From the NCBI GenBank assembly GCA_027003115.1, contig JALWYS010000197.1, forward strand, positions 1-35,002: a DNA stretch of 35,002 nt. Direction: 5' to 3'. The DNA comes from Deltaproteobacteria bacterium (GTDB lineage: Bacteria > Desulfobacterota > Dissulfuribacteria > Dissulfuribacterales > QOAL01). Under the pieces are notes generated by a model. The model was not told where the DNA came from, did not search any database, and worked only from the letters and a program-made list of their open reading frames with translations. Shown piece by piece: positions 15,082 to 30,715 of the stretch (the stretch's first letter is position 1; each line of letters begins with the position of its first letter). A program made the position numbers and the translations under genes.

Positions 15082-16149
15082 TTATATGGGGAGCTCTCCA
15101 GAGGTAGCACTTGCCGCATACTTGAAATATTGCTCCATAAAGCGGCCTGAAACAACTTCCGCCACCGAAAACCTTAGTTTTCCCTTCTCCAGAAACTTTC
15201 CAGACAGGGCAAAAAACAGCATCCTCGAGACCTCAAATATCAGGTTATGGATGGAATCGAGTTTCTCTTTATCAAGTTTTGCCCCATAGGCCCGACACCT
15301 TACCGGTCGGGTTTCAAAGATGGCACATTTGCCATCTAAAAGAAGGGCACACTCAAGGCCTTCATTTTTGTAAGCTCTTATAAAATCCTCCACTAAAATA
15401 TCACCTTTTTCTGAAGACAACCTGCGCCTTATTTCCCTTTCCTTTTGAAGCTGCTCATTGGCCCTTTCCACGAGTCTGTGCCGTTCTGCAATGCGAAGTT
15501 GTTTGTTCAAATAGTAATGTATGTAAAGACTTTCAAGAAAGGAAAGCTCAAAATACTCGTGGCAGCAGTCCGCATGGTCTCTTCCACATGCAGGCACTGA
15601 TTCTGCTACCATGGAGTCCACTGCCTCCAGGATCTTTTCGTATTTGGAAAAATAGACAGAAAGATCAACGCTTTCCCTGTTCTCAAGGTTCGGCTCCCTG
15701 ATACTTAGGCGCCTTTCCCTTTTGTCATACTGTTTAAGGAGCCGCCATTGACTCCAGGAGCTTGAGCCAGCCCGCGTACCCTTAAGCATCTCGCTTGCCT
15801 TTTTGTATCCAAGGCCTTTACGGATGAGATAGGCAGTAACAAAGGTTCCTGTTCGCCCTATGCCGTGCTTGCAATGCACAAGCACCTTCTTTCCCAAAAA
15901 AATGGCCTCGTCAAGCCAATCTAGGGCCTTTTCCATCTCTTCCATGTCAGGGGCATGTTCGTCTGGAATGGGCAGGTAATAGACGTCAAAGCCGGCCTTT
16001 TCCTCTATCTCGTGGAGATCGCAATATTCACCGCATAAATTTACTATGGCAGTTATGCCAGCCTTTTTTATGGTTTCCAGGTCCTCATACGACATAGGCG
16101 CATAGCCAACTGCAAGGTTTGGAGTTATCCAGGTAATCTCATAGGCCAT
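15082..16149 (-). CDS. dual-specificity phosphatase domain fused to YkgJ-like Cys-cluster domain
   Basis: VLVHCKHGIGRTGTFVTAYLIRKGL (HCxxGxxRT phosphatase loop), then CGRDHADCCHEYF and CALLLDGKCAIFETRPVRCRAYG (YkgJ-like cysteine cluster). Start chosen at ATG 16149; the tracked TTG at 16164 is an alternative. Confidence 0.78.
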   Translation of the reverse strand: MAYEITWITPNLAVGYAPMSYEDLETIKKAGITAIVNLCGEYCDLHEIEEKAGFDVYYLPIPDEHAPDMEEMEKALDWLDEAIFLGKKVLVHCKHGIGRTGTFVTAYLIRKGLGYKKASEMLKGTRAGSSSWSQWRLLKQYDKRERRLSIREPNLENRESVDLSVYFSKYEKILEAVDSMVAESVPACGRDHADCCHEYFELSFLESLYIHYYLNKQLRIAERHRLVERANEQLQKEREIRRRLSSEKGDILVEDFIRAYKNEGLECALLLDGKCAIFETRPVRCRAYGAKLDKEKLDSIHNLIFEVSRMLFFALSGKFLEKGKLRFSVAEVVSGRFMEQYFKYAASATSGELPI

Positions 16150-18643
16150 TTTTGTCTTCCTCAAAACCGGATGAAAAGTCTGACCTCCCCCTTAAAAATT
16201 CCTCTGCCAAGGCCTCCACATCAATCTCAGGCTTAAGATACATGTCCATTAACCTAGTTGCGCCTACAAGCCGACCAAGTTCTTTTAATATTTTCTTGAC
16301 GTCATCCTCCGGAACCTGGGAAATCTTGCCATCTACCAGCTCACCTGTGCTTTCAGCCTCAAAGCCTAGTCTTCTAAGAATATGAATGAGAAATTGGGTT
16401 CGCAACAGCCTACCTTCAGGAGCACCACCTCCACCAGAGAATCTGAATGTGATATAGTTCGCCTGGCTGTTTTCCGTACAAAGGGCGTTTATCTGCACAA
16501 AATGGTAGCCAAAGCGCACGTTGAGATTCATGTAATCCCGGGCAACAACGGCGTAGCTTGAAAGCTGAGCAGAATCCTTGCTCACAACCCCCCCTGCAAG
16601 CATGATGTTGTCATAATCTCCCCAGGCAAAGTGTTCTACCTCAGTCCACTTTATAGAGGGATCAGTTAGCCCCTTCCAAAAAGCCTGCATGGGTACAGAT
16701 GAGATGTTTTCAATGGATATCTCCTCAAGACCTTCTGCCTCATCCTTTATTCCTCCTCCAACGTCCAACACATAAAAGACCAGAGGGAGCCCATCCTTGA
16801 GCCTCTTGGTGCCTTTTCCTGTTATGCTGCCCTTGCTTCCAAGGGAAAACATTTCCCTCATGGAGGTCTCGTGACAAAATCTGATTATATCATGAAAGGA
16901 CCGACAGCCTTCTGGCCTGAAATCAGGGGAATCTGGGTCCACCAGGCTCAAGTGACATGCAAGTTTAATAAGCTGTTTAAGCATGGAAAAGATGGGCCTG
17001 TTTTCCTCCTTTTCCCTATCCCTCAAGGACGATCTCTGCTCACATTCCTTTACCTTTCCATGATAGACGCTGCAGTTATCTGCATCCACTGTTACAAGTT
17101 CGTTGTTTTTAAGTACGCTTAAAGCATCATTCATGCCGCAGATGTATGGGATACCCATTTCTCTTGCCACTGAGGCACAGTGGCTTGCAGGGCTTCCCTC
17201 TTCAGTAACCATGGCCCTGATCCTGTCAAAGACAACCACATAGTCTGGAGGGGCTGTTCTTGACACTAGCACGGCACCTTCTTGAATAGTGTAAAGGTCT
17301 CCTGTTGAAAATACCCTGTGGACCCGTCCACAGGCACAGCCTCCAGATGCACTCTGGCCACCTGTCAGAATTGTAATAAGACCCTTTGGCATTTTTTGGC
17401 GTTCTTTAGTTTTTTGGTCGCCAGATTCCAATGACAAAGGACGCGCCTGTAAAACCTTGAGCTCACCCTTTTGATCAATACACCATTCCATATCAACAGG
17501 ACCTTCAATAAGCTTTTCGATTTTCACGATCCATTTTGCAAGCCCTTTGGCAAGCCTTTCATTAAGATTTCTGCAAAAGAGGCCCCTTTCAATAGATGCC
17601 ACCTTCATGGAATGCCTGTTTACCACAATTTGGGCAGGCCTGACCTTTCCAGACACCACCTGTTCGCCCTGCCCTTCAGTGGCATAAATACAGATGAAAT
17701 CGTCTTTTTTCCTTTCCGGATCCCTGGAATAGGCAACACCTGCGCAAAGAGGCTCTATCATCTCCTGCACTATAGCTGCCATGGGGGTTTCAAGATCACA
17801 GTACCCCTTTTTAATCCTGTAATAGATGGCATTTGGAGTGTATTTGCTTTCAATCACCTTCTTGTAGGAAATTTTTATGTCATTGGCATGAACACCTATG
17901 ATCGATAGATACTGACCGGCAAAGGAGCTGCTGCTATCTTCTGCCACTGCACTTGACCTTACGGAAAACTTCAGCCTGCTGGTTGAACCAAAATTTTTTT
18001 CCAAAGCCGTCTCTATTTCTGCCTGTAGTGGGAGAGGAATATCAGCGGACCTAAAATAACTGAGAATCTTCGTAGAACAGCGCTTGAGACTTTCAGGATC
18101 TTTAATGTCAACCCTTGCAAGCTCTTCCTTTAATACAGGTAGCATGTCCAGGCATTCCATCAGGTAAAAAAAGGAATGGGTAGTAACAACAAAAAATTCA
18201 GGGACAGGAAGGCCAAGTTCCCTTACAAGCCTAAAGAGATTATAACCCTTTCCACCCAGGAGGTTGTCAGAAACCTCTTCCTTTAATTCAAGAGAGGCCG
18301 TAAATGGAGGAGAAATATTGTAATATTTGGGTTCAAGCAAAAATCGGCAGTAAAAATCAATCTTTTTATAGTAATCCCTTAGATTTCCATATTTAAGGGG
18401 TGAAAGCTCAATAAGCGCTTCCACCATTTCGCTTACGGCCTTTGATAGGCTTTCAAAAACCTTATAAACACGATAACAATCAACCTCCTTTTTTTTATAA
18501 AATATCTCTTCCAATTGGGCCAAGTAAACATGGGCCTCTTTGTCAGCAACCAGGATCTTTTTAAAGGCCTCGTATTTTTTCTTGGCAAGCACTCCTGGAG
18601 CAAAAAATTGGTAGGTCAAATACTTAAAAAGTGTAAGAGGCAT
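16139..18643 (-). CDS. PEP-synthase/PPDK-like dikinase with a noncanonical C-terminal region
   Basis: ATP-binding region NLLGGKGYNLFRLVRELGLPVP, FSVRSSAVAEDSSSSFAGQYLS, DMEWCIDQKGELKVLQARPLS. Phosphohistidine domain VTEEGSPASHCASVAREMGIPYICG. The last ~290 aa do not look like the PEP-utilizer TIM barrel. Confidence 0.82.
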   Translation of the reverse strand: MPLTLFKYLTYQFFAPGVLAKKKYEAFKKILVADKEAHVYLAQLEEIFYKKKEVDCYRVYKVFESLSKAVSEMVEALIELSPLKYGNLRDYYKKIDFYCRFLLEPKYYNISPPFTASLELKEEVSDNLLGGKGYNLFRLVRELGLPVPEFFVVTTHSFFYLMECLDMLPVLKEELARVDIKDPESLKRCSTKILSYFRSADIPLPLQAEIETALEKNFGSTSRLKFSVRSSAVAEDSSSSFAGQYLSIIGVHANDIKISYKKVIESKYTPNAIYYRIKKGYCDLETPMAAIVQEMIEPLCAGVAYSRDPERKKDDFICIYATEGQGEQVVSGKVRPAQIVVNRHSMKVASIERGLFCRNLNERLAKGLAKWIVKIEKLIEGPVDMEWCIDQKGELKVLQARPLSLESGDQKTKERQKMPKGLITILTGGQSASGGCACGRVHRVFSTGDLYTIQEGAVLVSRTAPPDYVVVFDRIRAMVTEEGSPASHCASVAREMGIPYICGMNDALSVLKNNELVTVDADNCSVYHGKVKECEQRSSLRDREKEENRPIFSMLKQLIKLACHLSLVDPDSPDFRPEGCRSFHDIIRFCHETSMREMFSLGSKGSITGKGTKRLKDGLPLVFYVLDVGGGIKDEAEGLEEISIENISSVPMQAFWKGLTDPSIKWTEVEHFAWGDYDNIMLAGGVVSKDSAQLSSYAVVARDYMNLNVRFGYHFVQINALCTENSQANYITFRFSGGGGAPEGRLLRTQFLIHILRRLGFEAESTGELVDGKISQVPEDDVKKILKELGRLVGATRLMDMYLKPEIDVEALAEEFLRGRSDFSSGFEEDKNGL

Positions 18644-29116: not shown

Positions 29117-30025
29117 TTATCTGCGCCCCTTGGCAAGGCGTTCAAGCCGTCTGCGCCTTTTCTTCCTGCGTTTTATTATCTTTTTTACAGTGGCATTAAG
29201 GATATCTTCACGAAGCTTTACGACTTCGGACTCCGCTCCAAAGACCGCCACCTTGAGATATTCAAAGCCAAACTGCATGAGCTCCACATCATCCTCAAGA
29301 ATCTTTCTGAGGACCTTGCTGTCAACCTTATATGTATCCAGGAAACGGCTTTCAAATACGAAGCTTCTGAACCTCTCCATATTGGTTGAAACCATAAAAA
29401 AAAGCTCCCTTGCCTTTGGGGGCATTTCGGTCTCTTCTCCAAAGGAGCGTTTTCTAAGAAGAAGTTCCATCCATTCCCGATTCATTCGGTCGTAGAAGTC
29501 AGAGCCTTGATCCTGCCTCCACGACTCAATGGTCCACTCGGTATCTTCATTAAAGCCCTTGCAATGAGGCTCCTTTACGAGAAAGAAAAATTCCTCCTCC
29601 TCACCGGCATGCTTTTCCTGCTGACGAAGACTGGCAAGACCAACAGGATAATAGCGGCAACAAACAGGTCTGTCTGTATAGACCTGACATCCGTCCTTTG
29701 TGACAAAGGGGCACCTTCCCCCTTCATCCTCAAGCATCTTGAGCCGTGCAACAGGGATCCTGGTTATGCCCAAAAGCTCAGGTTCGGTATAAAGCCTCAA
29801 AAAAAGATCCGATGACAGGCCCAGCCGGTGCTTCAATCTTATTATGTCATAAGGGGTGAGGATTATATTCATGTTACGACAGCACTTGGTAAAACAGCTT
29901 ACCCCAGGATAGCAGCGAAACTTGAACTTGCTGTCCCGGTCAAGCCTTACCGGATCAACCACGCTGTCTTTTTGCCCTTTTTTAAGGGCCTTATCTATTC
30001 TCTTTTCTAGGTGTTTAAGTGACAT
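29117..30025 (-). CDS. YkgJ-family cysteine-cluster protein
   Basis: CYPGVSCFTKCCRNMNIILTPYDIIRLKHRLGL...CPFVTKDGCQVYTDRPVCCRYYPVG; basic C-terminal tail KKIIKRRKKRRRRLERLAKGRR. Confidence 0.88.
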   Translation of the reverse strand: MSLKHLEKRIDKALKKGQKDSVVDPVRLDRDSKFKFRCYPGVSCFTKCCRNMNIILTPYDIIRLKHRLGLSSDLFLRLYTEPELLGITRIPVARLKMLEDEGGRCPFVTKDGCQVYTDRPVCCRYYPVGLASLRQQEKHAGEEEEFFFLVKEPHCKGFNEDTEWTIESWRQDQGSDFYDRMNREWMELLLRKRSFGEETEMPPKARELFFMVSTNMERFRSFVFESRFLDTYKVDSKVLRKILEDDVELMQFGFEYLKVAVFGAESEVVKLREDILNATVKKIIKRRKKRRRRLERLAKGRR

Positions 30026-30124: not shown

Positions 30125-30715
30125 TCAAAAATTTTCGCGGCTTTTAATTTTCTTAAAATCTTCAACAGTATTTACATTGGTCAGGCAAAGCTCAAGATTA
30201 ATTTCATCCCCCACCTCATCGTGGCCAACGATCTTGACGGGCACCTTATTTAAAAGCTCACTCATCTTGTAGGCCTTTTTCTCGATAAGCCCCTCTATGA
30301 TGGGCAAAAGGCTCTTGTGGTATCTGGCATGAAGTGGATGTAGTCTTCCATTCGCCTTTGGTATTACAACAGGTTCAGAGGCTTTGAAATCTATAAGAAA
30401 TTTAATAAGCCTTGGATCAAGAAGCGGCATGTCACAGGCCACAAGAAGCACTTCTGGAAATGAAATGGCCTTTAATACCGAATAGAGACCTCCCATTGGT
30501 CCGATGCCCTTTTTTTTATCAGGAATCTTGGGTATATCCAGCCAGTTATAGTCTGATGGATTTTTTAAAGAAAGAACCACATTATCTGTAACAGTTAATG
30601 CCTTCTGAATTATATCTTCAATAAGGGTCTTGCCCCTCCATTTAACAAGGGCCTTGTTCGTGCCAAATCTACTGCTTTCCCCTCCAGCCATTACAACAAC
30701 TACACAGTCTTCCAT
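30125..30715 (-). CDS. mobA: molybdenum cofactor guanylyltransferase
   Basis: VVVVMAGGESSRFGTNKALVKWRGKTLIE, IGPMGGLYSVLKA, LLVACDMPLLDP, LHARYHKSLLP. Confidence 0.9.
   Translation of the reverse strand: MEDCVVVVMAGGESSRFGTNKALVKWRGKTLIEDIIQKALTVTDNVVLSLKNPSDYNWLDIPKIPDKKKGIGPMGGLYSVLKAISFPEVLLVACDMPLLDPRLIKFLIDFKASEPVVIPKANGRLHPLHARYHKSLLPIIEGLIEKKAYKMSELLNKVPVKIVGHDEVGDEINLELCLTNVNTVEDFKKIKSRENF

Follow-up and report, generated by a model that had tools for sequence, protein, structure and literature searches.

The locus considered here raises the question of whether a dikinase and a phosphatase encoded by overlapping genes form one system and, if so, what they act on. It lies on the minus strand of a 35,002-nucleotide stretch (hereafter, the window) of contig JALWYS010000197.1 from a Deltaproteobacteria bacterium of the order Dissulfuribacterales (assembly GCA_027003115.1), where a gene for a protein of the phosphoenolpyruvate (PEP) synthase and pyruvate phosphate dikinase (PPDK) type runs by 11 nt into a gene for a dual-specificity phosphatase (DSP) fused to a YkgJ-like cysteine-rich region. 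The initial annotation, which placed both open reading frames (ORFs) and their overlap correctly, supposed that the pair makes and removes a phosphoryl mark. The pair proves to be a conserved unit, and the reading that we prefer, tentatively and with somewhat less than an even chance, is a receiver-linked dikinase/phosphatase phospho-switch of Desulfobacterota-type bacteria, whose output would bear on the uptake or use of sulfur oxyanions.

Conservation was followed in 60 relatives of the window's genome and in a sample of 395 genomes from the phylum. Among the relatives, the full phosphatase fusion occurs in 23 genomes (the copy of G030 being split by contig ends) and in 22 of these its neighbour is the orthologous dikinase, whole or as a remnant; in G031 the two genes stand on separate contigs. 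The surroundings of the pair vary, since it follows pilus genes in the window and in the genomes closest to it and lies elsewhere in other genomes. In the phylum sample, the fusion phosphatase is present in 42 genomes, and outside the window's order, where 31 genomes carry it, it is adjacent to or fused with the dikinase in 26, separated from the dikinase, within one operon, by genes for the receiver, the kinase, and the binding protein in two, tail-to-tail with a dikinase of a sister clade in two, and unlinked, 130 kb from the dikinase, in one (G252). Moreover, dikinase and phosphatase are joined into a single polypeptide at two loci, L150 (1259 residues) and L163 (1252 residues). A tree of 79 C-terminal domains (CTDs) places the DSP-linked dikinases in one clade of 51 members (SH-aLRT 98), 47 of which have a DSP within 1.5 kb and the other four elsewhere in the operon or genome. 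The adjacency, the two fusions, and the single clade support the dikinase and the phosphatase as a real conserved unit, as the co-occurrence expected by the initial annotation would have it, and chance neighbourhood was rejected on the adjacency in relatives, the phylum-wide pairing, and the one DSP-linked clade. Relatives were also sought in viral contigs, with patterns from both alignments, and in plasmids, with the CTD, and none was found.

Whether the dikinase is an ordinary PEP synthase whose gene happens to lie next to that of a phosphatase can be judged from its domains. Enzymes of this family convert ATP to AMP through a phospho-histidine intermediate that swivels to the acceptor. As in PEP synthase and PPDK, an ATP-grasp PPDK_N domain (Pfam, E 1e-64) is followed by a swivelling, or mobile, PEP-utilizers domain (E 5e-22) with the phospho-histidine, H488, within GSPASHCAS, in agreement with the initial description. 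H488 is kept in 48 of the 48 clade members having that position and in 28 of 28 paralogues; K132, R229, E386, Q399, and R401 are likewise conserved in every member having those positions. Such conservation lies far beyond chance, and the ATP site and phospho-histidine are intact in sequence. Unlike PEP synthase and PPDK, however, the window dikinase has a conserved N-terminal region (NTE) and the CTD, Pfam gives no match beyond residue 523, and the PEP/pyruvate TIM barrel (PEP-utilizers_C, PF02896), whose normal folding would have spoken against a special system, was not detected in its C-terminus at the sequence level. PF02896 was found on two other proteins of the window's genome, where a PEP synthase-type protein with the barrel is encoded on contig C82. 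NCBIfam models of PEP synthase give the dikinase 256-270 bits, with cut-offs of 598-740, and the rifampin phosphotransferase model 155 bits, with a cut-off of 999. Position 486, two residues before H488, which holds the regulatory threonine in PEP synthase, is alanine in 42 of 48 members, and the DUF299 regulator (PF03618) was not found in the window's genome, which is about 90% complete; thus, control of the DUF299 type is unlikely here. An ordinary PEP synthase would account for the matches of the PPDK_N and mobile domains to PEP synthase models, but the undetected barrel, the separate barrel-bearing protein, and the phylum-wide conservation of the pairing make this explanation highly improbable, and a canonical PEP synthase was rejected on the first two of these points.

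Outside the PPDK_N and mobile domains, the dikinase has no match in Pfam, NCBIfam, or the PDB. The NTE and CTD occur together in 98 of 110 frames, the remainder being mostly truncated or divergent, and D585, H591, H714, N729, R748, and D800 of the CTD are invariant in the alignment, paralogues included. A Pfam search on 40 members, a PDB profile search, and Foldseek gave nothing above chance for the identity of the CTD; its profile found no rifampin- or phenol-binding acceptor domain among PDB sequences, the fold model being too weak to exclude distant structural relations (with three sequences, AlphaFold reached a mean pLDDT of 54 for the phosphatase and of 52 for the CTD, where only the last 130 residues were good). 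H38 of the NTE was considered as a relay histidine and rejected, as it is leucine in 11 of 47 NTE-bearing clade members and also in most paralogues.

The strongest single clue is a natural deletion of the kinase core, which the initial annotation, right about the domains, omitted together with the NTE. In genomes G023, a single contig, and G024, the phosphatase is adjoined by a 393-residue protein in which the NTE is joined directly to the CTD, without both kinase domains and with the polar invariants of the CTD retained; no other clade member was found in either genome above the threshold used. As the two are sister branches (SH-aLRT 96), one loss of the kinase core suffices. The retention of NTE and CTD without the core indicates that the two make up a single module, with the kinase core as an insertion, and that the partner of the phosphatase is this module and not the kinase alone. 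It could be, then, that the NTE/CTD protein is itself the substrate of the phosphatase, on Ser/Thr/Tyr or His, and the real effector, with the kinase core as a removable add-on. That exactly these two parts survive with the phosphatase, and that they travel together in most frames, would fit such auto-regulation, whereas 49 of the 51 clade members have the kinase core, or a core cut only by a contig end, with catalytic residues retained, so that it is under selection in most hosts; we regard this explanation as improbable.

The four-part build of NTE, PPDK_N, mobile domain, and CTD is also found, without a phosphatase, in three paralogous dikinases on contig C200 of the window's genome (L093 564-3215, L094 6824-11997), one of which has genes for a TauE-like permease and a UspA-like protein in its vicinity. 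Relatives carry arrays of paralogous dikinases with receivers and NtrC-type regulators (L095-L098, L104). Sister-clade dikinases of about 1,050-1,180 residues (L136 10630-13818; L217, L221, and others) have an additional C-terminal region of about 200 residues, which in L136 weakly resembles concanavalin-like lectin domains (Laminin_G_3, 3keto-disac_hyd).

The phosphatase frame was listed as 15082-16164 from TTG, but orthologues support an ATG at 16149 and, thus, the 11-nt overlap ATGGCCTATGA. Its DSP match (PF00782, 60 bits, residues 25-143) is above the Pfam cut-off and, with HCKHGIGRT (C93, R99) and the general acid D63 upstream, the active site is intact in sequence. The DSP assignment of the initial annotation stands, and its YkgJ-like cluster is conserved as a cysteine pattern, the family match being borderline: YkgJ/CxxCxxCC (PF03692) reaches 17.7 bits, below the Pfam cut-off of 23, and is matched at E<=0.01 by five of 22 orthologues, and the pattern C-x6-CC...C-x7-C...RPxxCR is retained in about 51 of 56 homologues. 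The six-cysteine tail is best read as a putative metal site by which the phosphatase would be stabilised or tuned, and the metal or redox control initially proposed is a possibility; a literature search on YkgJ function gave nothing useful. The closest solved sequences to the phosphatase domain are archaeal and bacterial DSPs such as the protein tyrosine phosphatase (PTP) of 5z5b and ShufPTP (9e9l), at E 5e-16 and 7e-18, compared with which the window protein has, in addition, an NLCxExCDLHxIE loop signature and the six-cysteine C-terminal half. This near-invariant loop, NLCGEYCDLHEIE, at residues 37-49 in alignment A1 (C39, E41, C43, D44, H46), is possibly a second metal or redox site. The window also encodes a second, stand-alone YkgJ-type CxxCxxCC protein (29117-30025, 40 bits), adjoined by a gene that reads like a MobA-type nucleotidyltransferase (30125-30715). 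The features of the locus are collected in Table 1.

Table 1. Positions in the window of the dikinase and phosphatase genes and of their parts.
Feature	Position	Strand	Basis
Receiver-associated dikinase (NTE, PPDK_N, mobile phospho-His domain, CTD), 834 aa	16139..18643	-	ORF, Pfam matches, 51-member clade
NTE, N-terminal region, about 115-118 aa	18290..18643	-	Conserved; without family match; stays with CTD upon kinase-core loss
PPDK_N ATP-grasp domain, aa 127-416	17396..18265	-	Pfam; catalytic residues conserved
PEP-utilizers swivelling (mobile) domain, aa 453-523	17075..17287	-	Pfam
Phospho-His H488 codon	17180..17182	-	Alignment
CTD, uncharacterised domain, aa 530-834; putative acceptor or ligand site	16142..17056	-	Invariant polar residues
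11-nt overlap ATG...TGA of dikinase and phosphatase genes, ATGGCCTATGA	16139..16149	-	Sequence
DSP phosphatase and YkgJ-like fusion, 355 aa, ATG start	15082..16149	-	ORF, Pfam, orthologue starts
Dual-specificity phosphatase domain, aa 1-150	15700..16149	-	Pfam, PDB sequence matches
CX5R loop HCKHGIGR, H92-R99, nucleophile C93	15853..15876	-	Alignment
Six-Cys cluster C188, C195, C196, C267, C275, C285 (YkgJ/CxxCxxCC-like)	15295..15588	-	Alignment

The pair has a third regular companion in a single-domain receiver, RR119, of about 119 residues, whose copies across the phylum are mostly 60-72% identical to that of the window's genome and whose phospho-acceptor set D8, D9, D52, T80, and K102 is invariant. 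RR119 is present in 38 of 42 DSP-positive genomes and in 13 of the 353 others (Fisher p 3e-37, uncorrected for kinship), and, among the paralogous dikinases, 15 of 28 have a receiver gene no more than 1 kb away, compared with 77 of 559 background ORFs at those loci. Elsewhere, the operon reads PhnD-like binding protein (PF12974), histidine kinase with Cache/HAMP/PAS, receiver, dikinase, and phosphatase; at L148 and L164 a TauE gene is also present, and at L164 an ORF of about 200 residues upstream, in the order TauE, hypothetical protein, PhnD-like binding protein, histidine kinase, receiver, dikinase, phosphatase. The dikinase followed by the DSP, together with the receiver, histidine kinase, PhnD-like protein, and TauE, is found at L148, L151, and L164. 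PhsA-like molybdo-enzymes, PhsB/TtrB-like ferredoxins, and several TauE/SafE genes lie nearby in several genomes, and these neighbourhoods fit a sulfur-oxyanion role. Two side observations concern the signalling genes: the operon histidine kinase (L140 1103-3148, L150 4084-6108) shows an insert rich in cysteine, CWQIMNCKNEVCPAFGNRGHRCWYLAGTLCP...C, before the PAS region, and in the window's family (relatives L188-L192, L195) the receiver is a solitary gene in a conserved neighbourhood away from the dikinase, adjoining a gene for a protein of about 311 residues that reads like a cation-diffusion facilitator.

The receiver could instead exchange phosphoryl groups with the dikinase directly, in a phosphorelay between the phospho-histidine and the aspartate of RR119 in which the dikinase would act as an ATP-driven alternative histidine kinase and the DSP on a third protein. 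In many genomes the receiver gene is directly upstream of the dikinase gene or overlaps it, the phospho-acceptor set is invariant, and transfer from phospho-histidine to aspartate is standard chemistry, but many operons also have an ordinary histidine kinase adjoining the receiver, and the kinase-less genomes retain the receiver; this relay seems rather unlikely.

A locus of this kind has already been seen genetically. The Desulfovibrio 'nitrate cluster' (DVU0251-DVU0245 / Dde_0597-0605; Korte et al. 2014, PMC4001038) shares with L164 the order TauE, hypothetical protein of about 200 residues, PhnD/PtxB-like binding protein, histidine kinase, receiver, PPDK-N/PEP-mobile protein, and PTP/DSP, with a receiver of about 119 and a PTP/DSP of about 369 residues, although DVU0246 is listed as shorter (2235 bp) than the window dikinase and, in the window's genome, only the dikinase, the DSP, and an unlinked receiver were found. 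The initial annotation, which recognised no named system here, was right that the pair is real but missed both the receiver, histidine kinase, and PhnD-like context and this cluster with its mutant phenotypes. Transposon mutants of 0246 (dikinase), 0247 (receiver), 0250, and 0251 (TauE) grow in 100 mM nitrate as they do without nitrate, while the phosphatase mutant (0245) remains nitrate-inhibited, with a pooled fitness of -6.04 (PMC4001038). As the phosphatase mutant lacks the phenotype of the dikinase mutant, the latter would not simply reflect polarity onto the phosphatase. In Desulfovibrio alaskensis G20, cluster mutants are mildly impaired on thiosulfate, and the authors, who report mutant phenotypes only and term the gene roles not obvious, propose that thiosulfate is taken up and that nitrate enters along with it by accident (PMC4001038).

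The receiver-linked switch has also to be weighed against a small-molecule or polymer cycle, in which the dikinase would phosphorylate a metabolite or glycan and the DSP be the matching phosphatase. Antagonistic dikinase and dual-specificity phosphatase pairs are not unheard of, a precedent overlooked by the initial annotation being plant glucan water dikinase (GWD) and SEX4 in starch phosphorylation. Such a cycle would suit the CTD, whose invariant polar residues look enzyme-like, paralogues included, and the lectin-like extension of sister-clade dikinases. HpeHI, RPH, and PpsAB use ATP-grasp and swivel domains on non-pyruvate acceptors (PMC12167813), and rifampin phosphotransferase, phenylphosphate synthase PpsAB, HpeHI, and CreHI resemble the window dikinase in combining these domains with a non-barrel acceptor domain (PMC12167813). 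However, the window CTD has no profile similarity to any solved acceptor domain, and the regular partners of the window-type enzyme are a receiver and a histidine kinase, not catabolic enzymes. In contrast to GWD and SEX4, no carbohydrate-binding domain was detected in either window protein and no glucan-gene context was seen, nor was a carbohydrate gene recognised among the recurrent neighbours. The lectin-like extension does not occur in the DSP-linked clade proper, and two genomes dropped the kinase while keeping CTD and phosphatase. We consider a metabolite or glycan cycle unlikely.

In the receiver-linked phospho-switch that we prefer, the dikinase would autophosphorylate H488 from ATP and then phosphorylate not pyruvate but an acceptor bound in the NTE/CTD module. 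The co-translated DSP would remove the same mark, or reset the module, and its cysteine tail would bind metal. The dedicated single-domain receiver would set the direction of the module and could be fed, in many genomes, by the adjacent histidine kinase and PhnD-like binding protein, and the output would concern how sulfur oxyanions (thiosulfate-type compounds) are taken up or used. The domain make-up, the catalytic residues, the conserved pairing with its fusions, and the co-occurrence of the receiver are established from sequence, whereas we infer the phosphoryl chemistry, the way in which control runs, a common target on which kinase and phosphatase would be antagonists, and the sulfur link. 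A bacterial signalling device of a new kind, in which the phospho-histidine writes, and the DSP erases, a mark on a CTD-held acceptor, gated by the receiver and controlling sulfur-oxyanion entry, is possible but doubtful.

Several observations weigh against this switch. The main difficulty is that G023 and G024 keep the NTE-CTD module, the phosphatase, and the receiver without the kinase core, so that a phosphatase of this type can do without this kinase as a writer. The receiver of the window's own genome is unlinked, on another contig (G000:C59 10947-11303), and that genome yielded no close homologue of the binding protein. The presumed membership of DVU0245 and DVU0246 in this clade is judged by gene order, annotation, and gene lengths rather than by sequence. 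In G20, moreover, the phosphatase mutant is mildly nitrate-favoured (2.08; PMC4001038), and simple antagonism thus fits poorly.

The enzyme core is of a known kind, but the literature searched describes neither the CTD nor a partnership of receiver and phosphatase nor the kinase-less form. The natural kinase-less form and the natural fusions provide a parts list that is directly testable. If the switch is real, two-component signalling would have taken over a PEP-synthase fold to serve as a regulated writer, paired with an eraser of its own, and this would help to explain the nitrate resistance of sulfate reducers that lose these genes, a question from the 2014 paper that bears on souring control.

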